Origin: Isoetes taiwanensis
Lineage: Eukaryota > Streptophyta > Lycopodiopsida > Isoetales > Isoetaceae
Direction of reading: 5' to 3'
Length of the DNA stretch: 64,000 nucleotides
Assembly (NCBI GenBank): GCA_021234155.1
Contig: JAJEKV010000096.1
Coordinates: forward strand, 229,501 to 293,500
In this document: in pieces, positions 6,174 to 64,000 of the stretch
Position numbering within the stretch: the first letter of the stretch is position 1
Layout of the letters: each line of letters starts with the position of its first letter
Notes under the pieces: generated by a model
Told to the model about the DNA's origin: nothing
Databases searched by the model: none
The model's input: the letters and a program-made list of their open reading frames with translations, nothing else
Translations under genes and position numbers: made by a program

Positions 6174-6275
6174 ATCGAAAACTCAATATACAAGTATATT
6201 CATTACAAAATGGTCAATACATGTGTTCACGTTCGATTACAATATTCACACAATTTGACTATCTGAAAGCAGGGG

Positions 6276-27440: not shown

Positions 27441-27656
27441 GACATGCTAAAATTTTGCATTCTTGCACTGCGACTCGCATGAAACCAACAAAGCGCCCGA
27501 TAGATAGGCTTCTCATTCATCTCAGCAGATTTTCTACAATGGTGGATAGTGGGTAGCCGCACACATGCGAACTACCCACAAAAAATAAAGGGAAAATCCA
27601 ATTATATCGCTTGGACCCCAAAAATACGATGCTAACAGATGTTTGGTTGGTGTACC

Positions 27657-27737
27657 TGCCGAAAGCTTATCACCGGGATTAAAAAACCCCGCCCTTTCGG
27701 GTTTTCGAGGAAAAACCCTAGTGATAAACCTTCGGCA
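27657..27737 (-). ncRNA. structured motif copy A (possible three-way-junction RNA)
   Basis: On the minus strand an outer stem (TGCCGAAGGTTTATCAC with GTGATAAGCTTTCGGCA, few mismatches) encloses two hairpins: GGGTTTTTCCTCGAAAACCC and CGGGGTTTTTTAATCCCG. The same core occurs at 28911-28991 and 39999-40063 with different outer stems. It could be a SINE or LINE 3' structure. Transcription is not shown by sequence alone. Confidence 0.4.
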
Positions 27738-28712
27738 AGGGGCTTAGACAAACGCTAGGCAGAGAAATCGCTCCCAAAAACCTACGAATGGAGGTGTCGA
27801 AACAGATGCCGCTCGCCAACCTGTACCTGCACATCACCAACACCAAAAAACAAAACAAAACAAACCTCCCAGAGTGGAGGGGCTGATTACGCGCGTGCCA
27901 CGCGACAAATATAATAAACAAAGAAGGGGGAGGGTGGGTTCAAAGAGAAATAGGTACTGCTGAGAGAAGAGGAGGCGCCGATGAAACGTCGATGAAGAAT
28001 TCCGCAATAAGTAGCAAACGCCCAACCTGATGAACGGCCCAAAACGCATGCGATGCATGCATGCGACGCATGCAATGCATGCATGCTCGTCTTGAGCAAG
28101 AATGCCGATTAAATACGCCGAATCGACGACATTCTTGCACCGCGACCGCATGAAACCAACAAAGCGCCCGAATACCAAAGGACTTCCCTTAACAAACTAG
28201 GATCGAGGGCGAAAGGTCACGCGGATGAAGGCTAAAGGCCGGAAAAGACAGCAAGAAAGCAACGCCAAATTGGCCAAACCAGGCAGGAAGAAGCCCCTCC
28301 TCTGCCTGGAAACAATTCAAAGAGAAATAGGTACTCTTTGAGAGAAGAGGAAGCCAGATGAAACGCCGATGAAGAATTCGCAATAAGTAGCAAACGCCCA
28401 ACCTGATGAAGCGGCCCAAAACGCATCACGATGCATGCATGCGGCGCTTGTAATGCATGCATGCTTCGCTTTGAGCAAGAATGCCGATTCGCCACGAATC
28501 GACGACATTCTTGCACTGCGACTCGCATGAAACCAACAAAGCGCCCGAATACCAAAGGACTTCCTTAACAAACTAGGATCGAGGACGAAGGTCACAGGAT
28601 GAAGGTTAAAGGCCGGAAAAGACAGCAAGAAAGCAACGCCAAATTGGCCAAACCAGGCAGGAAGAAGCCCCTCCTCTGCCTGGAAACAATTCAAAGAGAA
28701 ATAGGTACTTCA

Positions 28713-28786
28713 AGAAATCTGCTGAGATGAATGAGAAGCCTATCTATCGGGATAGATAGGCTTCTCATTCATCTCAGCAGATTTCT
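28713..28786. repeat. perfect inverted repeat, 36-bp arms, 2-bp spacer
   Basis: The left arm at 28713-28748 (starts AGAAATCTGCTGAGATGAAT) is the exact reverse complement of 28751-28786, with GG between. The right arm is the normal start of block X; the left arm is the same sequence turned around at the block junction. It can form a cruciform or hairpin. Confidence 0.95.
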
Positions 28787-28910
28787 ACAATGGTGGACAG
28801 TGGATAACCGCACACATGTGAACTATCCACAAAAAATAAAGGGAAAATCCAATTATATCATTTGGACCCCAAAACAAATACAATGCTAATAGATGAGTGG
28901 CTGATGTATC

Positions 28911-28991
28911 TGCCGAAAGCTTATCACCGGGATTAAAAAACCCCGCCCTTTCGGGTTTTCGAGGAAAAACCCTAGTGATAAGCCTTCGGCA
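28911..28991 (-). ncRNA. structured motif copy B
   Basis: Same core as copy A. In the outer stem one base differs (CCTTCGG preceded by AAG rather than AAA), which improves pairing with CTTATCAC on the other side. Confidence 0.4.
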
Positions 28992-29815
28992 AGGGGCTTA
29001 GACAAACGTAAGGCATAGAATCGCTCCCAAAAACCCGCGCATGGAGAAGTCAAAACGGATGGCGCTCGCCAACCTGTACCTGCACATCACCAACAACAAA
29101 CGAGAAACATACCAAAGAATAGCATCACCCAGTGGGTGGAAAAAAAGCATCACCCACCGGATGGAAAAACATGATAAACATAACTCGTACAAAAAAGAAT
29201 AAACAAAGAAGGGGGGGAGGGTGGGTTCAAAGAGAAAAAGGTACTGCTGAGAGAAGAGGAAGCGCCGATGAAACGTCGAGGAAGAATTCCGCAATAAGTA
29301 GCAAACGCCCAACCCGACGAAACGGCCCAAAACGCGCATGTGATGCATGCATGCGACGCGATGTATGCATGCATGCTGCGTCTTGAGCAAGAATGCCGAT
29401 TCGCTACGCCGAATCGACGACATTCTTGCAATCGCGACTGCATGAAACCAACAAAGCGCCCGAATACCAAAGGACTTCCTTAACAAACTAGGATCGAGGA
29501 CGAAGGTCACAGGATGAAGGCTCAAGGCCGGAAAAGACAGCAGGAAAGCAACGCCAAATTGGCCAAACCAGGCAGGAAGAAGCCCCTCCCCTGCCTGGAA
29601 ACAAATTCAAAGAGAAAAAGGTACTGCTGAGAGAAGAGGAAGCGCCGATGAAACGTCGAGGAAGAATTCCGCAATAAGTAGCAAACGCCCAACCTGACGA
29701 ACGGCCCAAAACGCATGCGATGCATGCATGCGACGCATGCAATGCATGCATGCTCGTCTTGAGCAAGAATGCCGATTCGCTACGCGAATCGACGACATTT
29801 TTATACACCTCCATT

Positions 29816-30957
29816 AAAAAAACACCTACCATTAATTTGCATTATTTGCAGCAAAAGCTACGTAGCTTGACTACAGCTTGGTATGCCCATTTCAGTTAGT
29901 AACTATCTTTCTCAGTGAGGTTTCATCTTCTATTTGTCTGCATGTTATTGTGCTTTATAGGAGATGTCGCTAAAATCTTCTAAGATCATAATCATAAAAT
30001 CATAATCAGTCCTTTTATGTTTATTATTATTTGCTCTGTGGCTAGGCATAAAATTAGGTTGTTTAGCCAATATGGCTTGCCCTGTAATGTCTTGATTGTT
30101 TCTTCAGCATACAAATAAAAATTGAACAAGTACATTTCAGTGGTTTACAATTGTTTGTGGAGTTATTACTACTTAAACAAAATGTGCCTCTAAATGCGGT
30201 TCCTTATAGCAATTATTGATGATAAAAGGTTGTCCCTGCTTATTATTTTTTTGAACACCTTGCAAACAAAAGCTCATCTTGCAAAACTGTGCTTCAATTA
30301 TGCAAGATGTTTAGGGCATCTCATTTTTTTCATGCTTTCACATGCACATTTTTGTCTATCATGAACAACTTACACATCATAACCATTTTGGGATGTGAAT
30401 TGACATATAGCATATATAGTGGCCATCTTTGAGAAGTAAAAGACATCTAAGTGTTAACCAACTTCTCTCAAAATCAAAAACTGGTTTTTAAATAATCGTC
30501 TAGGGCACCCATAGATCATGTTTCCTCATAAGTTTGAATTTCATCGAATTGCAACGATATGGTATAAGTGTTCTTGGTTGAACATCCTCATATATTACAC
30601 AACATTCCAATTCTCTCTTCATAATTAGTGACTTAATGTTCTCTGTATTTGTTTGAGCATATTTTATTTTATGTAATTGTCCTACCTATAGTCTCTCCTT
30701 GCTTTGTCATTAGAACTACTAAGTTCTAAGGCACAAACCCATAGCGGTTTAGTTAGGGTTTACACTTTTAGCATTGAGGGTTTAGGGTTATATGTTTATA
30801 GGCTATACAAATTTAAGGTTCATGTGCTAACATAATACATATATAATGCACATACAGTACAAACTCCGTTGAAAGACATATACCCACTATAACCTCTCGC
30901 CCAAGCTTACCACTATAGTCAGTAATATTTATTCAATCCAGACACAAATACTCTGCT
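29816..30957. other. no gene seen
   Basis: AT-rich intergenic DNA. TTTAGGG-like words begin near 30755 (GGTTTAGTTAGGGTTTACAC, GAGGGTTTAGGGTTATATG). No ORF of note. Confidence 0.5.
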
Positions 30958-46002: not shown

Positions 46003-47150
46003 GTTACAGAATTGGTAACACATTTGATATACAATTGGCAACTTCCATTTCATTGCCCTTTCAGTTCATCAGCAATTTTAGCAAGCAATTGCGCATGGCT
46101 TCATTGCTCGCAACCATCCACCTGCCAATACCCTTGTGTGTGGGCTTTTTTCCTTTCTTCATCAGCAATTGCACGTGGCCAATGCTTGCACCACTAATCC
46201 CTTGGAATTTGATGAGTTTAGAAGGAAGCATACATGTACCATCTTGATAGCATGGCCTCTTGTGATTTAAGCTTTCAGTTGCTGCATGTTCATGCATCAT
46301 GTCCCGTGGTATCTTAATATTTAAACTCCTTATCCTCCTCCTTTCACATGCAACTGAGTATTTGGCAATCCAAGGGTGTTATAGAATTGGTAACACATTT
46401 TATGTACAATTGGTAACTTTCATTTCATCAGCAATTTTAGCAAGCAATTGCACATGGTTCCATTGCTGGCAGCGATCCACCTGACAATACCCTTGTGTGC
46501 AGGCTTTTTACCATTCTTCATCAGCAATTAGCAAGCAGTTGCACATGGCTTCAATGCTTGCAGTGATCCACTAGTCCCTTGAAGTTTGATGAGTTTAGAA
46601 GGAAGCATACATGTACCATCCTCATAGCATGGCCTCCTGTGATATGGTCTCTTGTGATTTAAGCTTTCGGCTGCTGCCTGTTCATGCATCATGTCCCGTG
46701 GTATCTTAATCTTTGTCCTCCTTATCCTCATTCTTTAACATGCAACTGAGTATTTGGCAATCCAAGATGTTACAGACTTGGTAACACATTTTATATACAA
46801 TTGGTAACTTTCATTCCATCAGCAATTTTAACAAGCAATTGCACATGGTTCCATTCCTCGCAGCGATCCACCTGACAATACCCTTGTGTGTGGGCTTTTT
46901 TCCATTCTTCATCAGCAATTAACGAGCAGTTGCACATGGCTTCAATGCTTGCAGTGATCCACTAGTCCCTTGAAGTTTGATGAGTTTGGAAGGAAGCATA
47001 CATGTACCATCTTCATAGCATGGCCTCTTGTGATTTAAGCTTTCAGCTGCTGCCTGTTCATGCATCATGTCGCATGGTATCTTAATCTTTGTCCTTCTTA
47101 TCCTCCTCCTTTCGCATGCAACTGAGTATTTGGCAATCCAAGGGTGTGAC
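46003..47150. repeat. three tandem copies of the 3' end of the kinase gene
   Basis: Units of about 373-385 bp start near 46003, 46376 and 46761. Each carries (minus strand) the last coding stretch of the kinase (ERRRIRRTKIKIP, DMMHEQAAAESLNHKRP, GTCMLPSKLIK) and 3' flank. Only the copy nearest the gene is in frame with it; the outer two are free-standing 3' ends with small differences. Confidence 0.9.
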
Positions 47151-47989
47151 AATATTTGCTGCAAACTTATTCTTTCGTCGGGATCAGGCCGCAACATCGC
47201 CAAAACAAGACTCCTTGCTTCTTCTGATACCATTCCAGCGGGCCATTCTAACTCTGATACAGCCAAATCCTCACCATTGAGCAGTTTTTCTCCAATCTCA
47301 CCAGTCTCTAAGTTTGGGAAGTGATTGAGGCCAGTAAGTGACTGATATAATATCAAACCCAAACCCCATATGTCTATCTCTGTGGAATAATATCCCTGCA
47401 GAACCTCAGGAGCAAAGTAGCCATCGGTTCCAACTTGGGATGTAAAATTGGGAGGAGAACATGTAAAACGAGCCGAGATGCCAAAATCTGAAACCCTAAC
47501 ATCGTAAGGTTTTGTTGTTGAGACCACAAGAATGTTATCTGGCTTCAGGTCCCGGTGGATAATACCATTTTGATGTAGATCTTGTATAGCTAGTGCAAGG
47601 TTTCTAATAAGAAGGGCCACTTCCTTCTCGCATAACTTGCCTCTGTTCATAATTAGGTCAACCAAACTACATTCACATAATTCCATGATCAGGTGCCAGT
47701 AACCATCATCTATGATCACTTCGTGTAAGAGTATTATGCCAGGGCTGCTGGCCAATTTCTGCATAATCTCTATCTCCTCTGCTGGCTTTGTGTATTCGGC
47801 CTTCTCAATTGAGATGGTTTTGCAAGCAAACTGTTTCTTACCCCTTTTACTCCTGCAAAGGAAAACCGTAGCTTGGGCGCCATTGCCTATCTCCTTCACC
47901 AGATCATAGCGCTCCAAAAGATTAGGATATGAAGCCAAATAAGTGTAGTTGAGAACGTCTTCTTCTGCCTCTTGCATCTCTGTCTCCAT
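46919..47989 (-). CDS. intronless Ser/Thr protein kinase, CDPK/PPCK-like catalytic domain
   Basis: 356 aa. The start is taken at the ATG at 47989 (METEMQEAEEDVL); the open frame continues upstream but without another ATG, and CT-rich leader sequence lies there. The kinase domain covers most of the protein: Gly loop EIGNGAQATVF, ACK lysine, HRD in IIHRDLKPDNIL, DFG in VSDFGISARF, GTDGYFAPEV, DIWGLGLILY, and HPWIAKY near the end. It is complete, with all catalytic residues. The domain resembles CaMK-group plant kinases (CDPK, PEP-carboxylase kinase) but no EF hands follow; the tail of about 55 residues is basic then Cys-containing. The single exon and small size fit PPCK-like kinases; the substrate is unknown. 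Its 3' end is the template of a downstream triplication. Confidence 0.88.
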   Translation of the reverse strand: METEMQEAEEDVLNYTYLASYPNLLERYDLVKEIGNGAQATVFLCRSKRGKKQFACKTISIEKAEYTKPAEEIEIMQKLASSPGIILLHEVIIDDGYWHLIMELCECSLVDLIMNRGKLCEKEVALLIRNLALAIQDLHQNGIIHRDLKPDNILVVSTTKPYDVRVSDFGISARFTCSPPNFTSQVGTDGYFAPEVLQGYYSTEIDIWGLGLILYQSLTGLNHFPNLETGEIGEKLLNGEDLAVSELEWPAGMVSEEARSLVLAMLRPDPDERISLQQILSHPWIAKYSVACERRRIRRTKIKIPCDMMHEQAAAESLNHKRPCYEDGTCMLPSKLIKLQGTSGSLQALKPCATAR

Positions 47990-48297
47990 TTCTTCGCGTC
48001 TCTGTGAACACACACTCTCTCTCTGAAATGAAAACGGACCAAATTTATACCTTTCGTAAGTTGTTGACGTTTCTGTCCGTTGGATGTTGGCACGATCCCA
48101 AAGCAAACAACGCGAGCCGTTGATGCACAAACACAATCCCAAATGCTAAAAGATGCCAACTCAGCATCATCTGCCCATTAGATTTACAAGGATATGCTGA
48201 CTGGGACTTTGTGGGTGTATCTAAATAGTATATGAGAGGAAAGAGCTAAAATAACAAAGTAATAAACGCTTGGTACAATCAAATTTAGCCTAGATAG

Positions 48298-48534
48298 TAT
48301 CACACAGTACACTTGCAAAGCGGTGCCGTTATCGCTATCCTCGTCTGTTTGCTTATGAGCAGCAGGAGTTCCTCTGCTCTGCAGAAAAGAATTTTCATTT
48401 TTACTGGAGCAATAATGTTTTTTATTGCTATAGCCCTGCTTCTATTTTTTGGAGCCATAGCTCGAAAGAAACCTTACCCGCCGTTGAATCCAGCAACAAA
48501 CTCTGCTAAGGCTCCGCAAGAAACTGCGCCATAG
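48298..48534 (+). pseudogene. 3' end of a small membrane-protein gene in the TIR
   Basis: The open frame reads GAVIAILVCLLMSSRSSSAL, IFIFTGAIMFFIAIALLLFF, then ARKKPYPPLNPATNSAKAP and stops at TAG. It has two hydrophobic helices and a Pro-rich tail. The TIR boundary (48421) falls inside it at MF|FIAIAL. The downstream half recurs at 49491-49605, at about 62250-62330 (minus) and 62673-62785 (minus), each with the tail pattern KKPYP..NP and the PQETAP end recognisable. No ATG-led full gene is seen. It looks like the captured end of a host gene or an ancestral element gene. Function unknown. Confidence 0.45.
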
Positions 48535-50873
48535 CCCGAGCCAACAATTTCTATTTGAAATGTCACGTATCAGAATCTGAACCAAACGTCCCATAAGTCA
48601 TCGGCTAGGCAGTATTGCACCCCATAGGGCTTCAAGGCGGCCCCTCAAAGCCCTACGGGGCGTAATGCTGCTCTACCGGTGAATTACGTAGTACATAAAC
48701 TGGATTTTTCTTATTTTGCCGCCCTCGAGTAGAAGATCTGAAACTAGCCTCCGACTTAAATGGAGGACCTCTTAAAAAAAATAAGAAAGTGTAATAATGT
48801 GGCCAATCCATTTACGCACATATTATGCCACATCGCTCAAACTTATTTTACATTGTTGGATGTAAACGGATTCCCATCGACGACAACATGTTTTTTATTG
48901 CACTGCCGCTGCATTAGGGTAAATGTTCTGGTGCATAGATTTAAGCCAGCTGTGAGTTTTCTTTGCCCCTGCTGTGGCTCTCATCGGGAGTCCATTGAAC
49001 ATTGTCTAGTCTTGTGCCCACATTTGCAAGCTGCATGGGATTGGATCAGAGCATTGTTCCGGATCAGGATGTGTAGCCAGAAGATACTTCTTCATGTGTT
49101 TCCAGCTTCATGGTCCTCTCCTAAGAAGCATGCTTTCCATCTATGTAAGGCGTGGTTGGTTTGGTTGATTTGGAAACGGCGTCGTTTATGGATTTTTCAA
49201 GGGATTCAGCAACCTGCAGCCTCTCTAGTTCCATGACTCAGACATAAGTTATTCCAGAGTTTTCTTGTGTTTACTGGCCTAGAGGAGACAAAATTTCGCA
49301 TCTGGCGAGATATTTTGCACATTGTAAATGCGAATGGGGAGTTTGTACAGTGATTACTAGAGGCGATTAGAAGTTTACGCTCTAGTTTTTTAGTATGGGG
49401 TGCTGAGGTGTATCTTTTTCCTCACTACTCCTCTTGTATCATTGCCATTCTTTTAATATAAGTGTCTCAGCTTTTCAAAAAAAAAAAAACATGTTTTTGA
49501 TTGCTATAGCTCTGCTTCTCTTTTTTTTTAGAGCTCGAAAGAAACCTTACCCATCATTGAATCCAGCAACAAGCTTTGCCAGGGCTCCGCAAGAAACTGC
49601 GCCATAACTCGAGCCAACAACTTCTATGTGGAATGTCACGTATCATAATCTGAAGCAAAGCATTTATTATGTCCCCTAAGTCACTGGCTAGGCAATATTG
49701 CACCCCACAGGGCTTCAAGGTACCTCAAAGCCCTACGGGCCCTACCAAACGTCCCATAAGTCACAGGCTAGTCAGTATTGCATCCCATAGGGCTTCAAGG
49801 CGGCCCCTCAAAGCCCTACGGGGCGTAATGTTGTCCCACTGGTGCATTACGTAGTACATAAACTGGATTTTTCTTATTCTGCTGCCCTCGAGTGGAAAAT
49901 CTGAAACTGGCCTCCGGCTTAAATGAAGGACCTCTTAAAAAGTTAAGAAAGTGTAATCATGTGGCCAATCCATTTATCCACGTGTTATGCCACATCGCTC
50001 AAACTTATTTTACATCATGGTTCTATATATCACAGAAACATAATGATATGTAGAATCGTTATGTTCAACTTACAACTCTAGTGTTAAGTTCATTCCAGAA
50101 AGCATTGAAACTCTGCATTGCCCATAAACAGATTCAGAAACAAACCTAAAATGAAAGAGGAGAAAAGGATAGACTTACAGACAATGGTTACGTGGGTTGC
50201 TCTTCAACGCCAAAGAAGGGCGAACCAAATGCCTATTCACTAAAACTCACTCAATTCGTCAGAAGAAAGCCCTAAAGTATGGAGATCCCAAAAGCCCTAC
50301 GAAGAAAACATAAGAAGTGAAAGATTATTACCGGCCACAAGCTGATAACTGATTATTTTGATGTCAAATATCCTTGATGATAGCATCCTCAATTCATTAT
50401 AGTGTCAAAGCTCGAGTTTGTTGCACAGATCGGCCATCAAGAATGCTTTAGGAGCAAACAAATGTACACAAATATAGACTTCCCAGCCCATATGAAGGTT
50501 AATGACAATTGTCCATTCTCTCAATGCTAAATGCACCTCCACATATATTAAAGATGCCAATGTATCAATCCAAGATATGCCTCGACAAACTCGTAAACTT
50601 GTGCAGTAACTTGAAAGCGTTAACGCAATTCAAGTGATGTCTCGACAAATTCGTAAACTTGTGCAATAACTTGGAAGCATTAATGTTAAAACTTCACATG
50701 TTAGCTAAACAATTGATCTAGAACATTATCATACTTACAAGCCTAGTGCCCAGATCATGGATTTGGTCAATGTCTTATTAACATTCTCAATTTGAAAACT
50801 ATTATCCATCCACGCACTTATTCCTACAAGAAATTTATCACGGCGGGTTTCATATCCTCTGTCCATGTCTTCC
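48421..50873 (+). repeat. left terminal inverted repeat of element 2
   Basis: About 1.86 kb without the LINE insertion at 48896-49487. The inner edge is at GTCTTCC (50873), where the CCA microsatellite begins. The arm contains a direct repeat of about 440 bp (unit 1 at 48421-48860, unit 2 from 49499) and then unique sequence to 50873. Confidence 0.88.
48896..49487 (+). mobile_element. 5'-truncated LINE inserted in the left TIR
   Basis: The insert encodes the zf-RVT C-terminal domain of plant LINE reverse transcriptase (VLVHRFKPAVSFLCPCCGSH, then ESIEHCLVLCPHLQAAWDW) to a TGA near 49236, about 240 bp of 3' UTR and an A13 tail. AACATGTTTTT at 48885-48895 and 49488-49498 is the 11-bp target duplication. 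The right TIR has an uninterrupted version of this site. Confidence 0.9.
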
Positions 50874-51195
50874 CACCACCACCACCACCACACTCCACCA
50901 CACCACATCATACCACCACACACCACCACCACCACCCTCCACAACCACACCACACCACCACCACACTCCACCACCACCACCCCCTACCACCACCACACAC
51001 CACTCCACCACCCCCCACCACCACCAACCCCCACCACCACTCCACACTCCACCATTTGGTGTATGGTGTATGGTGTGTGGTGAATGGTGTGGTGTGTGGT
51101 GGAATGTGGTGTGGTGTGTGGTAATGTACACAGCACTAAGGTGCTCGTTCTGGTGAATATGATGAGTGTGGGGCATGGTATGGTGCATGGTTTGG
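50874..51195. repeat. CCA/CAC microsatellite turning into GTGG repeats
   Basis: 50874-51050 is almost pure C/A/T (CCACCA, CACCAC); after about 51056 it switches to TGGTGTATGGTG-type repeats on the same strand. The two halves are complementary, giving a long imperfect inverted repeat directly inside the left TIR. Confidence 0.9.
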
Positions 51196-51238
51196 TGTGG
51201 TATACACATCCTAACAGTTTAGTGTTCATTTCATGCAG

Positions 51239-52978
51239 ATGCTATTGTTCAAGAGGTTTCTGGACCAACATCCAGAAATTAAGATTCGTCTTCGAGCTTT
51301 TGAGAAGCTAAAACTCAGGTTTGTTGTGAAATTGAAGGACTTCAATAGTTGTTGTTGCATTCAGCATGTGAGGATGCAAATGCTAGTGGATGGACTCAAT
51401 GGGATGAGAACCAAACATCCGAAGAATTGCACTTCCACCTGCGATGTTTGTAGATCACATGAACTTGGTCAATGCAGGGCACACCAGCATAAAATTGCAA
51501 GTATAGGAAGCTTGTGAAGATCTATATTGTGTCCAAAGAGTGAATTAGATGAGTTTCACAAGAAGGCGTGCATCCTTGGAGATTGTGAGCTTTGTGGAAT
51601 CAAGAAGTTTCAAACCTGTCCCATGGAAGAAAGTGGCAGTAACAGGAAAGTGAAATGGGAGTACATTGACTATGAAAAAGACAACGTCTCGAGTTCTGGT
51701 AGGAGACTGACTCATCAGTACAATGAGACAGAACTCAAGGAGCTTCTGGATAAACTGAAAGAGCGTCTAAAAATCTTTCCACTGCATAATTTCAGGTACC
51801 AATGGCGGGCAAAACAATTTAAGGAGCTTCTGGAGAATCTCCCAGCAGATGCATGTCTTTCGGTAGTGGATTTTGCAGAGAACTATACATTCAAGGAACA
51901 AGAGGAGGTGCAGTCGATGCGCTGGGACAATAACCAGATTACCATTTTGGTTCAAATAACATATCAGTATGACTCAATGGCAGATGAGATTATCAAGGAA
52001 ACACATTACTATGTATCAAATGATAGGGAACACGATACTTTGTTCGTGCAACACTGCTTCATGAAGCACCACAAACATCTGGAGCAGAAAGGAAGGGTGC
52101 CAAAGAGACATTATGTGTTTTCAGATGGTGCAGCATCTCAATTCAAGGCTTCTACATCATTTTACTTTGTGGCTAGGTACACAAACGACACTGATGTCTA
52201 TATGACGTGGATTTTTTTTTGTTCTAACCACATGAAAGGTGAACACGATGGCAAAGCTGCTGAGTTGAAGAGATGGTTAAGACAACTGCAATTAAAATAC
52301 AACAGCATAAAATTGGGTAATGCTCATGAAGTGGTAGAAGTTGCCGAAGAGATGTTTACTTGTGGAACATCCGAGTGGATGAACACATCTGAAACCAGTA
52401 AGAGGAAGAATATAAAAAGGTTCTTTTGGGAAGTCAAGGTGGAGGATATAGATAGAAAGAAAGCATGGGGTGCAGAAAGGATTTTGGACACTAGGCAGAT
52501 CCATTGTGTACATGCATTCAATCCTGAATCTCCATTGCAGTTGCACACGAAGGAACTTTCATGCTTCTGCAGCTACTGCTTGGATGGCATGTGGGATAGT
52601 TGTGTGAACAAGCACTATGTTGATGATTGGAAACTTCAAGCTATTGTACCATCCTCCAATGTGCATGCTGACATTGAGGACTGTAAATCCAGCAGGTCCT
52701 TGTTCTCCTCCAATCCCACGATGTTAGCAGAGGCACTTAGAGTTGGTGATAATTTTGCTGTCGTTGCTCCGAAAGGGAATGATGAGGGTTCTGAATTTTG
52801 GATTCTGATGTGCACAAAACCAAAATGGATAGTGGAGAAAGACTTCCAACTCAATGGAACATGGTACCTCGCTGGTGATAGTGTCATAGAAGGTATGTAT
52901 TACAAGAATGGTGCAAGATCAACCGTCAGCTATGATCTTTGCAGTAAAGACACCTTAGGCATAGTATTCACAACATAG
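51239..52978 (+). pseudogene. RNase-H-fold transposase-like protein of element 2, one in-frame TGA
   Basis: One reading frame runs from ATG 51239 (after a tttcatgcag acceptor-like site; another ATG at 51233) to TAG 52976, broken only by TGA at 51515-51517. The N-terminal part has FLDQHPEIKIRLRAFEKL and Cys pairs (CDVC, CELCG, CPMEE), probably zinc-binding. The core shows VVDFAENYTFKEQEEVQS (first Asp, 51.87 kb), FSDGAASQFKAS (second Asp, 52.12 kb) and NHMKGEHDGKAAELKRW (52.24 kb). These three blocks match a widespread family of uncharacterised proteins in invertebrates, fish and plants with DFAENY / SDG-QFK / HGK-DG blocks, which I read as a DDE-type nuclease. A Cys-rich C-terminal part (SCFCSYCLDGMWDSC) follows. 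No introns are needed. It lies just inside the left arm, as a transposase would. Confidence 0.65.
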
Positions 52979-52999
52979 ATCTGTGCAATCAGACTTCAC

Positions 53000-53110
53000 A
53001 TGCCACCAACTAAACGTCAAAACAGGACTGTATATAGGCTGGATCCTTTAGATGAGGAGAAAATTTTACAGAATTTACCCGAAGTTCTTTCTGATGATGA
53101 TGAAATGTAG
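53000..53110 (+). CDS. 36-codon ORF in frame with the transposase-like ORF
   Basis: It starts with ATG eight codons after the TAG at 52976 and keeps the same frame: MPPTKRQNRTVYRLDPLDEE followed by an acidic end (LSDDDEM). The composition is protein-like. It may be the true C-terminus of the transposase (stop gained at 52976), or a short independent ORF. Confidence 0.35.
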   Translation: MPPTKRQNRTVYRLDPLDEEKILQNLPEVLSDDDEM

Positions 53111-53327
53111 AACCATTCTGTAGTTTTCAGAACTCATGTGAAGTTTTGTGCTTCAGCTGTGAAAATGAGTTTGTCTTGATTTTTTTTGAAGATTTGAATT
53201 CTTCTGAACACTTGATTCCTTTGTTTGTGAGATGAATTGAATATGAATTTTCATTCAAATGAATCGAGGTTACAATAACAATTATGTACATAAGAAAGAT
53301 ATACAATGATTTGAAGTACGAGGTGAC
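53111..53327. other. convergent 3' ends, no gene
   Basis: AT-rich spacer between the plus-strand transposase-like gene and the minus-strand protease gene. Confidence 0.5.
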
Positions 53328-54284
53328 TCATGCACCTACATACTTCCCAATACATATGTTCCTCTCAGTTCCAGCTTTTGTTGCTTCTAATCTTAAAATT
53401 TCAAGCATGAACACTCTAACATCAACTAGATCCTGATCTGAAATGTCCACAACCTGCAGTTAACCACACTTTGTCAATAACAGAGTTTGGTTTGTCTGCT
53501 GCATTTGAGTTGACTTACTAGATCAGGTATATCAAGTACCCCCTCACAAATTTGTGCATAAACGAACATACGGCAGGGCCACATGAATGACCATCGGTTT
53601 GAAGAGGCGTTCTGGAAATTTTCACAACATCTGAGGTTGTAAAGCTGAAATTATTGTGTCCAAGAAATTCCAGGAACCTGCATTCAAAGTTTGTTGTCAT
53701 TGTGCCACAACAGCAAAATGCAATGAGCAAGCACTAACCTCTCAATATGTCTGCTTCTGCCATGCAAGCCTGAGCTATCAAAGTGATATATCCCTGGTTT
53801 ATATCTCTGTGCGAGACACGCGTGGCTTACAATCAGAAAACAGGTCCAGTGATGTCCATCACAAGCAGGCAAAAACATGTACTGGCACTTATCCAGATTC
53901 ACATGTTTCCTTATTGTTTTGTAACTATTTGTGTTCTTGGACAATGTCGAGTGAAAAAGAGGGTCAAAGAAATGAAAGGGATGGCTCATTCCTTGGAGCA
54001 TCAAGTAGTATTCCATGTATCTGCAAACATATGCATATGATGGCACAATCCTGATGATCACAAATCAGATGAAAGTATCACCTTGAGAAGAGGAGGATCA
54101 ATTGATCATTGAACCACTGCGTATCAGCTTCCAAAATTTTGATGTCGGTGGAGCTAATCACGACAGTTTCAGTTCCACTTAGCACCACTTCCAAATGTGT
54201 ATTTGGCTTTAGATAGACAGGGACTGCCGAAGCTCTATCATCTCTAGTTCTAAACACACACGAGAATATTTGCTCACAATCCAT
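53328..54284 (-). CDS. Ulp1/C48-type cysteine (SUMO-protease-like) protease
   Basis: Exons on the minus strand: about 54081-54284 (MDCEQIFSCVF to TQWFNDQLILLFSR, the substrate-groove WxND block), 53737-54060 (IVPSYAYVCRYMEYY, then YMFLPACDGHHWTCFLIV with the catalytic His, and YHFDSSG with the catalytic Asp), 53541-53669 (LEFLGHNNFSF, then LQTDGHSCGPAVCSF with oxyanion Gln and catalytic Cys) and possibly 53328-53453 (VVDISDQDLVDV to stop). The first two joins are GT-AG and in phase; the last join does not keep phase with any donor I can see, so the C-terminus is uncertain. All triad residues are present. Ulp1-like genes often ride on plant Mutator-like and other large transposons; the substrate is unknown. 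It may be fused to the phosphatase upstream. Confidence 0.75.
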
Positions 54285-54367
54285 TCAAATATCTTAAATT
54301 GAAAAAGTACAACACATATCATAGAATTTTTTTTACTTATATTGACTTTCAAAGAGTTTTACAACAT

Positions 54368-55260
54368 TCATTTATGAAAATACTTGTCGAGCATTTTCAT
54401 GCAGTTGCGCGACTCTTCAGAATCCCACATGTTCCACATTTGATGTTCCTTCACATAAGCTGGCACACTTTCTGCAGCCAGAAGTCCCTCCAGCCATGGT
54501 TTGAGTTGCTCCAAAAGGAAATTGAAATCCAACCTGTCGGGAGCAAAACTATTTGGACATATCATTGTATTCGGCTGGTTGACAGAACCCTTACATCTGC
54601 TGTCATCTATCAACAATGTGTTTTTCACCTGGTATTTCCAGAATTTCTGGTACACTTTGGACAGATCCTTAAGGAAAATTGGCTTATTAACCACTTTTAA
54701 TTTTGTGTTGGTGCAGTCATCCTGATTCCAAATAAAAAGAAATCTGCCCTTATATTCCTGCAGCAACTTTCTCATCAACAAGTCAACATTACTCTTAGCC
54801 ATGCTTCTCAAATTTTGAAAAATACCATTCTAAGAACTCCTGCAATCCAGGCCTGGAAACTGCTGCCTTTTGAAGGTTCAATTTCTGGAGGGTCACTTCT
54901 GGCTCGGGCGATGCAGGGATCTCTTTCAAGTCATAAAACTTGCCTAAAACCCCATTAAAATCCAGAACAAGGAGAATTTCAGTTAACCTCTTGGTTTTTC
55001 TTGGTTGACGTTGTATTGGACTCGTTGAGCAGTTTGCATCTTGTCCGGGATCCGGGGTTTCTTTGTCAACTTCATCACCTGCATCCGCATTTGGCTCATG
55101 TTCAGCACCAAAACTTTTTTCTGGTCCCGTGCAAAATGAATCTCAAGGGAATTAATTTCCTCCCCTAAAACAGATGCACTAGGAATCTCTTCGTGATGAC
55201 TTCCATTTGCAGTAGCATTTATCTCTGTAACATAATTGAAATGAGGAAGACCACAGAAAA
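54368..55260 (-). pseudogene. FCP1/NIF-like HAD phosphatase of element 2
   Basis: Reading down from 55260: an acidic linker (NSLEIHFARDQKK), a one-base shift at a T6/A6 run (about 55115), then KRLTEILLVLDFNGVLGKFY (motif I, DxNGV as in element 1), SRPGLQEFLEWYFSKFE, a second break at about 54800 that removes the IWS block, then SMAKSNVDLLMRKLLQEYKG, FLFIWNQDDCT, KNTLLIDDSRCKGS (motif III/IV region) and the end MLDKYFHK with TGA at 54368. The order of blocks equals that of the element 1 phosphatase. Two frame changes make this copy unlikely to be functional as assembled. It lies 84 bases upstream of the Ulp1 ATG on the same strand. Confidence 0.65.
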
Positions 55261-55812
55261 ATACAAAAAAATAAATCATGTATGTGGCATCGGTACTTAC
55301 TTGATCTGACGCATTCGATTCACTATCAAATTTCGTTTTGGAGTCTCCACGCGTCGGCCGGTTGGGATTGACTTAGGAGTATCAAATGGGGTGAATTCTA
55401 GGTACAACCGGAGGTATCTTGCGGTCTAAATGGCTCGATCGGGCGTGGATAATCTGTTGGATATCCTTGGTCTTAAATTTACGCAATTACGCAAACACTA
55501 AGTCGATGGACACAGTGACAACATCGGTAAACATTAGTTAAGGCACTTACTTGTGTCTATTGGTTCTTGTGGTACCACTCGAACACCAAAAGCCAAAAGC
55601 CATGTCTCAGTCATAATGTGGGCACAACTGGGTGTCTGCAAAACAAATTCAAAATCAATAGAGTCTTTAGACGAGGGTTAGAGATGATAATATTTACCTC
55701 AAATGGTGTGATAGACATGGAATGTGATCTTTGGTGGCGCATTACGCTATCACAACCGGCAACATTTTACCCTCCCATTTCGGACAAACGTCCACAAAAT
55801 GGACAACCTTCA

Positions 55813-56262
55813 TCACCCTCTTCTTACGCCTCGAGGGAAGCATTGGAAGTCGCGGGGATCTAAAGGAGTGTCATGACCACTACGCTCAGAAAAAATCTCA
55901 AATCTTTGCATTCGAGGTTGCAGCTCTAGCAGTAAGTCTTCACATGCCTTTAGCTCAATTTCAGTTTCTGCTAGTTCCTTATTTAATTGATTCAGCCCAG
56001 GCAACACTGTACCATTTAGCTCTTCATCCTTTGGTTAAACACAACCCGAACACCCTCTGCTTTGCTTTTCGGTTCTGTTGTCATGATTGATTGCCATCAC
56101 ATTGCAAATCAGCTCTAATTTCTGATGCTTTATGTTCCACCAACTCAATCTTTCTTTTGATATCATTTTTCCTATCCTCGTTTGCTTGCAATCGTTGCTT
56201 GCATCTATCAAACCTACCTGATGTTGCAGCCAACCATTCCTTCACAAGTCTGCAATAGTTTG
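55813..56262 (-). CDS. coiled-coil exon, hypothetical (element 2)
   Basis: On the minus strand: LVKEWLAATSGRFDRCKQRL, NDIKRKIELVEHKASEIRAD, a TGA/shift near 56080, then LPGLNQLNKELAETEIELKA and LLLELQPRMQRFEIFSERSG. Heptad-like spacing of Leu/Ile suggests a coiled coil. No enzyme motif. I infer an internal exon of the minus-strand gene whose first exons are at 57.0-57.6 kb. Confidence 0.4.
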
Positions 56263-56439
56263 CAAAACAAAATACTACGTATATGTCAGCCTCCTAACAT
56301 AGTAAGCCACGTACTGATGGAAAACCATAATCACACACCACACAACACAAGGTACTCTCTACACACCACTACATACCACACACCACACAACATATGCTGC
56401 ACAGTACACACCACACAACACGCTGTGGTGGTAGCAAGG

Positions 56440-56790
56440 AGTGGTGGGACATTGTGTAGGGTGGTGGTGGTGGTGGTGTGTGTGGTGGTGGTGGTGGTGG
56501 TGGTGGTGGTGGGGTTTAGTGGTGGTGGGTGGTGGGGTGTGGGGTGGTGGTGGAGTGTGGTGTGAGACATGGTGGAGTGTGGTGGTGGGACATGGTGGAG
56601 TGTGGTGGTGGGGTGTTGTGGTGGGGTGTGGTGTGGTGGTGGTGGAGTGTGGTGGTGGTGGTGGAGTGTGGTGGTGGTGGAGTGTGGTGGAGGGGTGTGG
56701 TGTGGGACATGGTGGAGTGTGGCAGTGGGAGATGGTAGAGTGTAGTGGTGGGAGATGGTGGGGTGTGGTGTGGGACATGGTGGATGCCAA
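56440..56790. repeat. GGT/GTGG microsatellite
   Basis: Nearly pure GGTGGT / GTGTGGTGGTGG repeats, complementary to the CCA array at 50.9 kb, within what would be an intron of the minus-strand gene. G-rich strand runs could form quadruplexes. Confidence 0.92.
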
Positions 56791-57029
56791 CAACTCACCA
56801 CTCACCAGACCACACATACCTCATCTATCATTCTGGCATCCACGAAATGCCCCACAGATGGCATCATAGAGACACAACATGACAATACAGCCAACATGAT
56901 GCAAAATGGTAGTAGGCATACCTGATTCTTGAAGTGGATTTGATGTTACATTTTCTGTGTTGATAGAAACAATCTAGGTCAAGCTTGAGATTTTTTTCTG
57001 TTGTAACACAACTAATAATTGAACATACC

Positions 57030-57597
57030 TGCAATGGCATGTTTTGGTCTTAGAACATTGCTCTGCTTTTCTATTTTGATTGTGAGTTCAGATTGAATGT
57101 GTGGTCTAGAGGAATCTGATTTGGTTTTTTCCCTATCATCTTCATCATCCCTGTCACTTTTACTATTTTCCTCCTGGTCAGGTTGGATTTGCCCATGCTT
57201 TCTCTTGGGTCTAGAAGAACTGACCTCTGCTTTCTCATCGGGAGTTTTATAATAATCCGAGAAGCTCTTCCAATTAACAGCCTCCCTTTTTATATGCAGA
57301 TAATAAGCCACTGCCCAGGTTCCAAGAGCCATTCCACCCCATGTATGTGGCTTCCCTGTAATTCTTTTGTAAATTTGCATGAACTCTTTGTATTGTTGCT
57401 CAGATTCTTCAACCTGTACGAGAAAACATATGCCTTAATTTTTCAGTTTGAACAAAAACATTTGGGGAAAAATACCTGTAGCCAGATTTATTTGGAACTC
57501 TGTCACCCCAAAGCTTCTTTAGATCTTCATGGGGCACAATCTCTTGTTTGAGGAGAGATTTCATCGTGTAACCAGTGGCATTCAATTCTGACTCCAT
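57030..57597 (-). CDS. N-terminal exons of a hypothetical element 2 protein
   Basis: Exon 1 runs from ATG 57597 (MESELNATGYTMKSLLKQEI) to a CAG|GTATTT donor at about 57477. Exon 2 starts after cgtacag at about 57414 and reads VEESEQQYKEFMQIYKRITG, KPHTWGGMALGTWAVAYYLH, then NWKSFSDYYKTPDEKAE and a charged region (KRKHGQIQPDQEENSKSDRD). There are no stops and good splice sites. No known domain; the Trp/Gly-rich GGMALGTWAV block may be part of a small fold. It is probably the start of the gene that continues through the coiled-coil exon toward the phosphatase and perhaps the protease. Confidence 0.5.
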
Positions 57598-57599
57598 TA

Positions 57600-60100
57600 G
57601 GGTTCAATCGGCAAGAAGCGGCAAAAAAAACAGAAGAAGAGGTGATTATTTCTTAATTCAAAATGAGGGACAATGACGTGGACCGACGCTCATTAATTCG
57701 CACTCCCGCAATCTCCGCTTCGGTACGCACCACCCCATTCTACCACAAAGGTGGGGATACTCCTGGGTTGCATAACCCCATTGAAGGTGTCGAACCTATG
57801 CCTTGCCCACACTCAGTGGCTTGCGATGAGGCCTAGCCTGCTAAGATCCCCGGTAGGCTTTACACACCAAAGGGATCAGTTTGTAACTGGACATGTCCTC
57901 CTTATATGTTGGTCCAACCCCGCCATCCATAGCCAGGCGGGCTCTTATGCACAGGCCGCAATAATTTGGGAATTATAAAGGCTAACTAGGTACATGATCT
58001 ACTAAAACCTTAGGGTCCAACATCATCTAATTTATCTATTTAACATACATGGTTAGGTTCTTTCATTAGAGGCTGAGATCTCGGAATCTATAGGGCTTCT
58101 AAGGCTAATTTAACCTACCAACTCGGCCTAATGCCGAACTGGAAGTCGGCAACCATCTCGGATTCTTGGCTCGCTCCAGCTCCACGGACGATGTCCATGC
58201 TATCGATCAGGAAGGAGATGAACGAATTCGGGAGATCTGTTATGCAAAGTGGGGCTTCAGGATTAATGCGGTAGGCGGGGAATGGCGCAAGTGCTTGATG
58301 AGGCAAGCTCTTGGAGTCTGGAATCCGAGAAGGCCAAATTTAGAGTTCCAGTCTCTTTTACATCTCTTTTAGGATTATGGTCAAAAGGTCATGTAGGGCT
58401 TTGCCACGTGGCAAATGGGGTTATATGAACATGTTAAAGGCATGTGCAATGCCCCCAGGGTACAACCCTTTATGGTTGCCATGTACATGTTGTCAAGGTC
58501 GACATGTAATATTGACGTGGCAGTATAATATATGTATTTATAACGTATATTGAACTGGAACATCACACTAAGCATCTGCAAAAAATGGAAATTGAGGTAA
58601 AGATAGAGTCTCATGTTCGGAAGTTGGAACCTGTGTGCAGAATGGAACAGTTGTTTGCCTCACCTGCAAATAAGACAATCAAATTAGAGAAACACATTCT
58701 AGATAGACCATTCAACCTAATTGTATCCACAACTTAGTTTGCCCACATATCTACTCCACTATTATCCCCCAAGCCCTTTGCCAAGATGTTGCACCTGCAT
58801 GAATATCAGTGGGCAAAAGAAAATCGAGAAATCTGGATATTCAAAGTTCAAAGATCTACAATCTACAACTCCAAGACAAACAGAAGACCAAAGATCTGAG
58901 GCCAAGAAAGCACTAATCGTAATCTATGCCATTGCCTGCTCTCTTTTATGTGCATTTTGATGCTTGCCCAAAGCTTGAAGGCTTGTGAAATTTCTTTGGC
59001 AATATGGACTTGGCAAATCCTTTGGCTCTGTTTGTTGCAAAGCGACCCATCTGCCGACATAGCTGCTTCAACAACCTCAGAGACTGTCCTTTGTTTGCAT
59101 CAAAAGGAGGTGGAGCAGAGTCTAATCTCTGCTCTCACATTCTACATCGCCTAGAGTGTAAGAAACCAGATTCACAGCTTATTTCCACAAAGGCGCACCA
59201 TATGGGCTCTACTGAAGAATTAAGCCGACTTTTACTTCAGGCATAGCAAATCCCTAAGAAGAAAACCTGAGAAGGAAGTTTGGACGTCAAGAATAAGCTG
59301 ATAAATCTGGCAGATCTTCCAAGGCATTAAGCAATGCCAGATTCATGACTATGGCAGGGCCGGATTTGAGTGATACTCATGAACAAATAAACAATAAGGA
59401 ACTACCTGAGATTGGATAAGCCAATTTTTACTCCCTTAATAAGCCAATTTTTGGCCTCCTGTCGAAATGTAGATGGCACAGAGATAGCTCGGAGATGGGC
59501 ACAGAGAAAACTTAGAAATCAAGTGAAAAGCTTCCTTAAAACTGGAAAATATTTTCGAAAGAGAAGGAAGAAAGAAGAGTTAAAGGTTCTACCTCCTATT
59601 ACCGCTGAAGGCCGTGTCAAACGAAATGGTCATCGTTGAAGAGTGAAATGGGTTTCAAAATGCTATTGCTCAAGGCAGCCCTGAACATAACTGTGCACTC
59701 CATTTAATCGTATCCAGATTCTCATTGTTGCCTAGAGGGAAAAATGGTCGGAAAAAGGACATTTCGCCGGAAAATCTATTTTTAGCTTCCAAATGTAACA
59801 CCCAAAAAAGGGCACACTGGCATTATCACCCACCCCCAAAAAGATTTTAAGTAAGTAGATAGGAGAAATGCATTGATAAACTCCTGAATTAAGATGATAA
59901 AACAACCTATTAAGAAGCATATAAGCAATTCTTATTATTAACAAACTTACACACACCATCCCTACGATGTACGTGAACCATCGCCCTTGGCTTAGGATTT
60001 TCAAGTTCCCGAGGTACAAAGGGTGTGTAGGACTTCATGATCTGCACAGTTAAAAGGTCAACAAACGTCAAAGAAACACGAAAATCCTTGAAAAAAAACA
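57600..60100. other. element 2 interior without a supported gene
   Basis: Contains the promoter side of the minus-strand gene and several short ORFs: 58166-58372 (plus), 58863-59060 (minus) and 59412-59639 (plus, very basic end FRKRRKKEELK). On the minus strand at 59910-60048, IMKSYTPFVPREL may be an exon downstream of the helicase fragment. None is convincing. Confidence 0.35.
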
Positions 60101-60262
60101 CATGCATATGTACTATATTGACAGCAGAACATTAGTCGCAAACATGATACTTACCCCCATCACAAAGCATCCGTGTAAACCACGATCCTTGTGAACCTTG
60201 AAATTGTATTGGCGCCTTCTTGAGGCATGGACGGTGTCTGTAATAGCAACCCAAATTCCTTT

Positions 60263-60692
60263 TCAATTTTGCACCTTTGAGAATGCTACATATAACTGTC
60301 CATGCATAGAGACAGGCTTTAGAAGATATATCCCCACCTTATGCATTGTCTGGCCCGATGACTTGTTTATCGTCATGGTAAATGCCGGTCGCAAGAGGAA
60401 TTGAACCCTTTCAAATTGAAATGGAAAACCTGAATCGGTAGGTACAATTGGAATGCCTGATAGGAACACAATGTCATCCACATGGGTTCCAGTTACTATC
60501 TCTGCCTCAATGAGACGTCTTTCTAGCTTTCATATAATCAATCACGTTCCATTGCACAGGCCCTTCTTGAATGACGTAGACCTCAACAACATGACAATCA
60601 TTCCCACCTTCAGATTTAGCTCGTGGGGCGGTACACCACTCTTCGTAAATGTTCGATAGCAAACAAACTTTAAAGAACTTGAAGTACTTCAA
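60263..60692 (-). pseudogene. PIF1-like DNA helicase, C-terminal fragment
   Basis: On the minus strand: a lead NDCHVVEVYVIQEGPVQWNV, a frame change near 60520, then AEIVTGTHVDDIVFLSGIPI, GFPFQFERVQFLLRPAFTMT, INKSSGQTMHKVGIYLLKPV and SMHGQLYVAFSKV. This is the UvrD-like C-terminal helicase block of PIF1 and Helitron-type helicases (consensus pattern PFxFxRxQFP..AFAMTINKSQGQT..GQLYVALSRV). The Walker A/B N-terminal half is not present in the window. It could be a relic of an intact helicase once carried by element 2, or of an inserted Helitron piece. Confidence 0.7.
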
Positions 60693-60784
60693 GTTACATT
60701 GAATATTGTAAACTTTTTCTACAAGTTTTTAGCAGTTTAGACCTTTTCATTTGCAGTTTGTTATTAAATTGAATATTATTGTAG

Positions 60785-60992
60785 GTTGCATTCTAGAACT
60801 ATTGAAAGACAACGTGCCAAAAATAAACAATTGGAAAGGGCTATGTCATCTCATTCTCGAAGAAGATTAGAAAGAAAAAATTCGATAGTTGAGATTCTCG
60901 AGGGAAAAAAGCGGGTTAGTGGGACTCCTTATACGTATTCGCTGTCAGACAAATTGATAGATGTTCGCTGCCAGACGAATTTCATGCTATAA
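60785..60992 (+). CDS. short basic ORF next to the right TIR
   Basis: After a tattgtag acceptor-like site the frame reads IERQRAKNKQLERAMSSHSR, RRLERKNSIVEILEGKKRV and ends TAA 15 bases before the right TIR. Basic, helical. No domain. It may be an exon of an otherwise lost gene. Confidence 0.25.
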
Positions 60993-61006
60993 ATGAGTAG
61001 ACAATA

Positions 61007-62785
61007 GGAAGACATGGACATGGGATATGAAACCAGGGGGGTTGGGAAAGAGAAATGTTCGCGACGGGCTTGGCTGCCGCGATAAAATTCTTGTAGGAAT
61101 AAGTGTGTGGATGGATAATAATTTGCAAATTGAGAAAGTTAATAAGACAATGACAAAATCCATGATCTGGGCAGGCTTGTAAGCATGATAATATTCTAGA
61201 TCAATTGTTTAGCTAACACCTGAGGTTTTAATGTTAATGCTTGCAAGTTATTGCACAAGTTTACGAATTTATCGAGACATCACTTGAATTGTGTTAATGC
61301 TTTCAAGTTACTGCACAAGTTTACGAGTTTGTCGAGGCATATCTTATTGATACAATGGCATCTTTAATATATATGGAGGTGCATTTAGCATTTAGAGAAT
61401 GGACAATTGTCATTAACCTTCATATAGATTGCGAAGTCTATATTTGTGTACATTTGTTGCTCCTAAAACATTCTTGATGGCCGATTTGTGCAGCAAACTC
61501 GAGCTTTGGCACTATAATCGGCTGAGGATGCTATCATCAGGGATACTTGACATCAAAATAATCAGTTATCGATTTGTGACCAGCAAAATCTTTCACTTCT
61601 TATGTTTTCATCTTAGGGCTTTTGGGATCTCCATACTTTAGGGCTTTCTTCTGACGAATTGAGTGAATTTTAGCAAATAGGCATTTGGTTCGCCCGTCCT
61701 TGGTGTTGAAGAGCAACCCACGTAACCATTGTCTGTAAGTCTATCCTTTTCTCCTCTTTCATTTTAGGTTTGTTTCTGAATCTGTTTATGGGCAATGCAG
61801 AGTCTCGATGCTTGTGAATGAACTTAACACTAAAGTTGTAAGTTGAACATAACGATTCTGTATATCACTATGTTTCTGTGATATATTGAATCATGATGTA
61901 AAATAAGCTTGAGCGATGTGGCATAACACGTGGATAAATGGATTGGCCATATAATTATTTACGTCTTCCATTTAAGCCGGAGGCCAGTTTCAGATCTTTC
62001 ACTTGAGGGCGGCATAATAAGAAAAATCCAGTTTATGTACTATATAATTCACCGGTGGGACAAAATTACGCCCCAAGGGGCCGCCTGGAAGCCCTATAGG
62101 GTGCAATACTGTCTAGCCAGTGACTTAAGGGACATAATAAATGCTTTGGTTCAGATTATGATACTTGACATTCCACATAGAAATTGTTGGCTCGGGTTAT
62201 GGCGTAGTTTCTTGCGAGAGCCCTGACAAAGTTTGTTCTTTGGATTCAATGGTGGGTAAGGTTTCTTTCGAACTATTGCTCCAAAAAAATAGAAGCGAGC
62301 TATAGCAATCAAAAACATATTGCCGTAGATGGGAATCCGTTTACATCCAACAACGTAAAATAAGTTTGAGCGATGTGGCATAACATGTGCATAAATGGAT
62401 TGGCCACATGATTACACTTTCTTATTTTTTTTTAAGAGGTCCTCCATTTAAGTCGGAGGCTAGTTTCAGATCTTCTACTCGAGGGCGGCAAAATAAGAAA
62501 AATCCAGTTTATGTACTACGTAATTCACCGGTAGAGAAGCATTATGCCCGTAGGGGCTTTGAGGTGTTGCCTTGAAGCCTTATGGGGTGCAATATTGCCT
62601 AGCCGGTGACTTATGGGACGTTTGGTTCAGATTATGATACATGACATTTCAAAAAGAAATTGTTGGCTCGGGCTATGGCGCAGTTTCTTGCGGAGTCCTA
62701 GCAGAGTTCTTGCTGGATTCAACGGTGGGTAAGATTTCTTTTGAGCTATGGCTCCAAAAAATAGAAGCAGAGCTATAGCAATAAA
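61007..62785 (-). repeat. right terminal inverted repeat of element 2
   Basis: About 1.78 kb. It pairs with the left arm from GGAAGAC (61007) to GCAATAAA (62785) with scattered differences. The same internal direct-repeat pair is present (about 61900-62300 and 62345-62785). It lacks the LINE insertion, so the LINE arrived after the arms were made. Confidence 0.88.
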
Positions 62786-63510
62786 CAAGGTCTTTGTATG
62801 AGGAGGTTGCCCTCCATGGCCAGAGGGTGAAGTGGCTTAAATCATACTTCAAAGTCATAATCAATCAAAACTGCTACTTCAAATAAATAGAATACTTGAT
62901 ACCATGAGTTAATGGGAATTGGCCTGAAGAGATCTTTGGTGCTTGGCATGGAACAAGTATTGCAGAAGCATAAGGACAAGTCTAATAGAGAAGAGAATGG
63001 AAAACATGTTTTGTTAGCATAAAAATTAGAGTAACTCCTTCAAGCCTCTGATCTGTTTTTTTGTGCTCGGGAGGAGGAAAATATGGAGCATTGTTGTGTA
63101 AAGATGCTGATGCGAATGAAGTTAAAGAAATAGTGTATGAATCACTCTCCCTTTATAATTATGATGTTTTGGTGAGAACATTGTGCATATTCAAATATAT
63201 AAGATTTACAACCCTGATTTAGACCTTTTACACTGCATCCTAAAATATGAATGCCAGATTCTGGATATGACGACATTTGTGACTCCAGAGCAAAAAATGC
63301 AACACATAAAATATACATTGTTTTTACATTTGAAGATGGATGTTGTTGTGTAGCTCAGTCCTAGAGCACCGCCACTGCTTTGTGAGGAATGGATGCACCT
63401 TATCAACATTATTTAACAAAACAAAGATAGAAAGCTAGTAAATAACAATCTTACTAGAGGCATTTCAACTAAGATTTATGGGCCTAAACTGAAGAAGCTA
63501 GGTTTGATAG
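62786..63510. other. right flank of element 2, no gene
   Basis: AT-rich; short ORFs only. Confidence 0.45.
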
Positions 63511-63768
63511 AGAGTTTTCAACTACTTATCTTGCGATGGGGATTATCCATTCTTACAATTGCTCGATTTATCAGAAAATGGCGTTGGGGGTTCCAAATCT
63601 TCACAGACTGGCAAGTATTCTCAACTTTGCACAAGCAATCTCGCAGGGAACTCTTTATCAGGGGTTCTAGCAGTGGAGTTAGATGAGCTTAGAGCATGTT
63701 ACAGAAATCATACTGTTGATAGCAATCTGTGCGCAATCAATGCATTAGAAACATTAGTGGTAAATTAA
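63511..63768 (+). pseudogene. leucine-rich-repeat-like fragment
   Basis: The frame reads RVFNYLSCDGDYPFLQLLDL then SENGVGGS, followed by CTSNLAGNSLSGVLAVELDE and a TAA at 63766. LQLLDLSENGVGG and LAGNSLSG match LxxLxLxxNxLxG plant LRR spacing. There is no start codon or signal peptide and the segment between the two matches is degenerate. Probably a relic of an LRR receptor gene. Confidence 0.35.
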
Positions 63769-64000
63769 ACAATGGATCTGATGTGTCAACTGTACAATTT
63801 AGAATGCAGTCCTGGCCATGAGAAAGTAGAATTATGAAGGTCAAGAAGCATAGGCTTCAATGGTCTCACACGACCAAAGATGGGTGCTCATTTCCCAGTC
63901 CTAATTGACTAACACCCGACCATGGATGGTTCGAACTTCCAAGCTCCTACAAATATAGTGCTAGACGTTGCAATAAAAGGTCCTTCTATCGTGAAAACCC
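63769..64000. other. no gene seen to window end
   Basis: AT-rich; no ORF of note. Confidence 0.5.

Follow-up and report, generated by a model that had tools for sequence, protein, structure and literature searches.

Among described transposable elements, the closest to the system considered here include Sola2 and Ginger1. Sola2 elements have short terminal inverted repeats (TIRs) and AT-rich target duplications of 4 bp (PMC3627910). Ginger1 has a Ulp1 domain accompanying the transposase, TGTNR ends and 4-bp duplications at CCGG or CCGT/ACGG targets (PMC2836005). The locus analysed here is a 14.4-kb stretch within 64,000 nucleotides of the lycophyte Isoetes taiwanensis (contig JAJEKV010000096.1, positions 229,501 to 293,500), the whole of which is referred to below as the window and lies on the contig we call C1107. 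An earlier note had read this stretch as one autonomous transposon with 1.8-kb inverted arms and four genes, encoding a DDE-like transposase, a C48 (Ulp1) protease, a HAD phosphatase and a PIF1-like helicase. Our results suggest, with a probability of about 0.93, that it is instead a composite, in which an unrelated 9.5-kb TIR transposon, truncated on both sides, lies between two arms that result from the inverted duplication of a protein-kinase gene together with the DNA upstream of it (Table 1). At the level of sequence, three things are evident: the arm is associated with the kinase gene, the transposon family possesses its own ends and 4-bp target duplications, and both of these ends are missing from the window copy.

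Table 1. Features of the composite locus and its surroundings, in window coordinates
Feature	Position	Strand	Basis and remarks
Protein-kinase gene (open reading frame (ORF) of 407 amino acids)	46919..48142	-	Pfam Pkinase 5.9e-59; arm on the upstream side
Left arm, upstream part of the kinase repeat	48418..50873	+	Inverted-repeat comparison; homology continues outward into the kinase gene at 9 other sites
3'-end insertion of a long interspersed nuclear element (LINE) with poly(A), inside the left arm	~48906..49490	+	Sequence; 39 other copies scored
Truncated copy of the 9.5-kb TIR transposon	50874..57754	+	Match limits against other copies
Catalytic part of the DDD transposase, 483 amino acids	51527..52978	+	ORF, genome search, alignment, predicted structure
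Ulp1/C48-like protease stretch, two exons or frames	53511..54061	-	Pfam E 0.0022, below cut-off
FCP1/NIF-like stretch, frame broken in the window copy	54368..54995	-	Pfam NIF E 1.7e-5, above cut-off
5' exons of the transposon's minus-strand gene(s), inferred from reading frames	57012..57597	-	ORF 57012-57380; ATG at 57597
Spacer, transposon remnant to right arm	57755..61006	.	Flank comparisons
Helitron-type helicase fragment, 88 amino acids	60263..60529	-	Helraiser E 2.8e-23, residues 1374-1459 of 1496
Right arm, inverted	61007..62788	-	Inverted-repeat comparison

The nested transposon belongs to a family whose limits can be read from other copies. A full copy, on contig C1048, measures 9503 bp, and both copies read to their two ends (C1036 and C1048) start with GGGTAAAAGCACGCTGTGGTGT and finish with its near-complement, the right end being one or two substitutions off. 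The homology between these two copies starts and stops at GGGTAAAAGC / GCTTTTACCC, and further right or left ends were seen in C985, C1049 and C35. The flanking target duplication of 4 bp is exact in three of the four copies read (AAGA in C1048, CATT in C985, GCAC in C35) and agrees at three of four bases in C1036 (ATGT/GTGT). A search with the left end gave 38 of 40 matches starting at the first base of the query; as the query itself began at the end, this is no more than consistent with an end there. Matches of other copies to the window start at about 50863-50873, in a CCA microsatellite, and the right limit of non-local matches is 57754 in 37 of 38 cases and 57750 in one (not counting the window, its local duplicate and a 93-base match at query 487-579). 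Because the other copies read continue to resemble each other beyond 50873 and 57754, the window copy has been cut on both sides; 2.6 kb is missing on its left and 57 bp on its right. Immediately before its 483-amino-acid ORF there is an in-frame stop, and Met stands at the position of a nearly invariant Gly236. The window copy is a dead copy; since its ends are missing it would be unable to move by itself, and the proposed autonomy does not hold for it. Cut-and-paste movement by means of the DDD transposase is predicted for intact copies, and transposase supplied by copies elsewhere would pair GGGTAAAAGCACGC ends and insert with a 4-bp stagger. The transposon also contains CCA/GGT-rich minisatellites in inverted orientation (50873-51054 and 56441-56784), which are found in other copies too and are very variable in length. 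A stretch of 167 amino acids in a minus-strand ORF near the left end of the C1048 copy, a part absent from the window copy, may be a further transposon gene; no Pfam family matched it above cut-off.

The DDE-like ORF was confirmed, and its product is predicted to be a transposase, with a change in the triad. In a genome search the protein scored at 88 loci, the window's own (100%) included and the others at 57-95% identity, these being the best of 11,809 first-look candidates. Asp115, Asp200 and Asp241 are invariant in an alignment of 23 sequences, the window ORF and 22 of 44 listed related proteins. Structure prediction, proposed earlier as a check for a D-D-E triad, gave an RNase H fold with an acidic triad, and the core protein is thus predicted to be an RNase H-fold transposase of the DDD and not the DDE type. 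The fold is supported by the predicted model and by all 50 listed VIA entries; Foldseek alone ranked NurA first, with a TM of about 0.12, and a clear result came only from the VIA realignment of Foldseek's own candidates. No transposase match to the protein was found in Pfam or NCBIfam, and the best hit of a PDB sequence search was a phosphatase at E 0.6. The transposase domain of KDZ (Kyakuja-Dileera-Zisupton) elements, for which there is a model in Pfam, gave no match at E up to 1. Relatives occur outside plants, for example as an oyster protein. Among viral contigs, none of 58 pattern matches was confirmed by tblastn, and no relative was confirmed in phages; a viral origin was rejected on these grounds. 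Among the open PMC papers searched, none paired 'giant virus' with Isoetes, none had DFAENY and none had 'DNA transposon', FCP1 and Ulp1 together. In a selection test on variants shared by at least three copies, the ratio of synonymous to non-synonymous changes was 38:52 for the DDD ORF and 9:10 for the C48 stretch, compared with 5:16 and 3:10 for two presumed non-coding stretches (after removal of 3, 1, 1 and 1 stops, respectively), while the FCP1-like stretch gave 1:0 from only 5 copies. The DDD and C48 counts point weakly in the direction of selection.

The Ulp1-like and FCP1-like genes belong to the 9.5-kb family. Of the 29 copies sampled, 23 cover the Ulp1-like stretch and 18 reach into the FCP1-like stretch over its first 100 bases, near which the fetched flanks end. 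An FCP1-like match lies convergent and downstream within 12 kb in at least 35 of the 88 DDD loci (the window's own included), and within 3 kb in at least 32 of these, against an expectation of about 0.0005 per locus; same-strand cases were absent among the listed matches. The figure of 35 is a lower bound because only the best 150 of 4,177 FCP1-like candidates were used. The protease named in the earlier note does have all the His-Asp-Gln-Cys residues of C48 (in GHHWTC, FDSS and LQTDGHSCG), but they are spread over two frames and the Pfam score falls short of its cut-off. The putative HAD phosphatase has a NIF match above cut-off, but its frame is broken in the window: motif I, which in the window lies in a different frame from the rest, reads LDFNGVL, a DxN form, both there and in C1036. 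The DxDx motif I of active FCP1/NIF phosphatases is thus lacking. The two closest relatives have DYNGVLG (P0049) and DFNGVLG (P0050), and in the two plant relatives read the first Asp is absent too. Phosphatase activity is therefore doubtful, and the protein, with Asn for the second motif I Asp, is perhaps not a phosphatase. Its nearest relatives are two proteins at 47% identity, followed by flowering-plant proteins at 29-45%; this suggests that the gene was captured from a plant gene, which we consider likely. A likely role for the linked Ulp1-like and FCP1-like proteins is that of helpers or of factors against silencing. In Pfam, no family matched the 5' exons of the minus-strand gene or genes above cut-off, and a RING-like piece in full copies scored below the Pfam cut-offs.

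As to the placement of the family, it is possible, although we hold this tentatively, that the nested transposon is a member of Sola2 and not of an unnamed superfamily, a comparison made by description only. The 4-bp target duplications and short TIRs are shared with Sola2 (PMC3627910), and the occurrence of transposase relatives outside plants, such as the oyster protein, is also in agreement. Against this, the same source gives the Sola2 duplications as AT-rich, while those of the nested family are AAGA, CATT and GCAC (PMC3627910). A more far-reaching proposal, which we put forward as a speculation with the odds well against it, is that the family represents an unnamed superfamily of DDD transposases (DFAENY ... 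SDG ... HGKGxxDG) found in this plant, in oyster and in many unnamed sequences. The lineage present in this plant would have acquired a plant FCP1-type pseudophosphatase together with a SUMO-protease-like gene; as a second, convergent block these might protect the element against silencing by the host or guide repair once it has transposed.

The inverted arms are real, although they are not the ends of a transposon. Of 17 inverted pairs of at least 60 nt in the window, 15 join the two arms, the pieces being 80-94% alike and the last of them (50846-50873 against 61034-61007) 28 bp long. The outer ~480 bp is present as a second copy within each arm, and the left arm is longer than the right because of the LINE insertion. 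With the outer 491 bp as query, 58 matches were obtained on 18 contigs, the strong ones being clustered, on 8 contigs. Homology passes 48418 into the kinase gene at nine sites besides the window, unbroken at five and with small gaps at four, where a transposon bounded by the arms would be expected to show a break. A search with the kinase gene scored 40 places, 14 of which, including the window's own, are copies at 88% identity or more, on 7 contigs; the other 26 are at 78-80%. All of the 14, the set compared with the arms one by one, have an arm match on the same side of the kinase, within 0.7 kb in 11 cases and at 2.9 kb (C241), 10.4 kb and 14.0 kb (both C1107) in the remaining three. One copy (C1107:306316-307497) is 98% identical to the window's kinase gene, on the opposite strand and 14 kb beyond the right arm, and is its mirror partner. 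This co-occurrence, together with the inverted mirror copy, indicates that a kinase gene was duplicated in inverted orientation and that the arms represent the upstream parts of this duplication. On the right side arm and kinase have been separated by other DNA, including a dispersed repeat of 1.15 kb at 62805-63949. This repeat adjoins the right arm and has sharp ends, with 2534 first-look candidates, 40 of which were scored. A 391-bp unit repeated 2.9 times at 46058-47142 lies on the 3' side of the kinase gene, and other kinase copies have parts of this unit too.

Segmental duplication, both local and dispersed, is the likely way in which the kinase/arm copies spread. An alternative that we consider improbable, though not negligible, is that kinase, arm and Helitron fragment together make up a mobile unit of larger size that carries genes, such as a Helitron with a captured kinase gene, and that the arms are inner parts of it. 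Such a unit is favoured by the occurrence of the 14 copies of at least 88% identity on 7 contigs, and by the Helitron-type helicase piece joined to the arm side. Against it, the copies form local clusters of the kind seen with tandem or segmental duplication, no ends of the unit were found, and the helicase piece is a short fragment.

That the whole is a single autonomous 14.4-kb transposon is scarcely credible and was rejected: its arms are long and alike and the DDD, C48 and FCP1-like genes do lie between them, but arm homology overruns the supposed ends, the DDD/C48/FCP1 family possesses ends of its own and is truncated on the side of each arm, the helicase is a Helitron fragment, and no further unit of arms plus genes was found among the entered sites. 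In this last comparison, 24 of the 58 arm matches were entered as representatives (those of the same cluster and short weak ones being left out), together with 88 of 101 DDD entries (the other 13 being second pieces of listed loci) and all 150 FCP1-like matches. None of the listed DDD or FCP1-like matches lies within 60 kb of an entered arm site off C1107, and the window's own is the only one of the 88 DDD loci within 60 kb of any. That note had named two findings that would count against it: the arms do form an inverted duplication, though one with dispersed copies, and the DDD or FCP1-like gene does not accompany the arms at any entered site off C1107, though the DDD, C48 and FCP1-like genes do co-occur without arms.

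Several points weigh against the composite. Some arm matches have no adjacent kinase, as at C1063:7527576, where homology ends at window position 48186, and only part of the arm sites were read. The dispersal of the kinase/arm repeat over several contigs makes a mobile unit larger than the arm possible, and the outer ends of this repeat were not found. The target duplications come from four copies only, one of them imperfect; the listings hold the best 88 of the DDD and the best 150 of the FCP1-like candidates; and the Foldseek matches by themselves are weak.

In the spacer that separates the right arm from the transposon remnant, positions 57755-58600 are matched only in the window and its local duplicate, apart from one 93-base match. 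The PIF1-like helicase of the earlier note is reduced to the 88-residue piece of Helitron type, which lies outside the transposon remnant. Since at C952 the sequence from window position 60396 onward is continuous with the arm, this piece belongs at least partly to the kinase/arm repeat. The right side of the locus is repeated about 45.4 kb downstream (window 57300-64000 against C1107:332234-339216), a recent local duplication, with 98% identity over 57300-58600 and 98-99% over 60388-64000; among the listed copies of the DDD gene there is none in this duplicate. Elsewhere in the window, two tandem arrays (5892-6213 and 8930-9267) have units containing the palindrome-like CTCGACTCGCGAGT, and the 3 kb at 27001-30000 show a strong AT skew (0.23 to 0.32) and contain a 374-bp unit twice, at 27939-28709.

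The composite removes a false class of giant transposons and illustrates that a transposon nested inside a duplicated gene can imitate one. What is gained is a plant transposon family of high copy number and with defined limits. No transposase model of Pfam or NCBIfam matches its transposase, and its FCP1-like and Ulp1-like cargo is open to tests of a role in the escape from silencing. Compared with known systems, the family resembles cut-and-paste DDD/E TIR transposons in having TIRs at sharp ends in dispersed copies, a target duplication of fixed length (4 bp, in three of four copies read) and a transposase with a predicted RNase H fold and an invariant acidic triad; it differs from them in the missing transposase match and in the convergent block of FCP1-like and Ulp1-like genes. 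With Helitrons (Helraiser) the locus shares the 88-residue helicase match, here a fragment only and outside the TIR transposon. The 4-bp duplication is common to Sola2, the AT-richness given in its description not being seen in GCAC (PMC3627910). Like Ginger1 and the Mutator elements with Ulp1, the family has a Ulp1 domain accompanying the transposase, and it shares the 4-bp duplications of Ginger1. It differs from the latter in that TGTNR ends and CCGG-type targets are not found, the ends being GGGTA and the targets AAGA, CATT, GCAC and ATGT/GTGT (PMC2836005).

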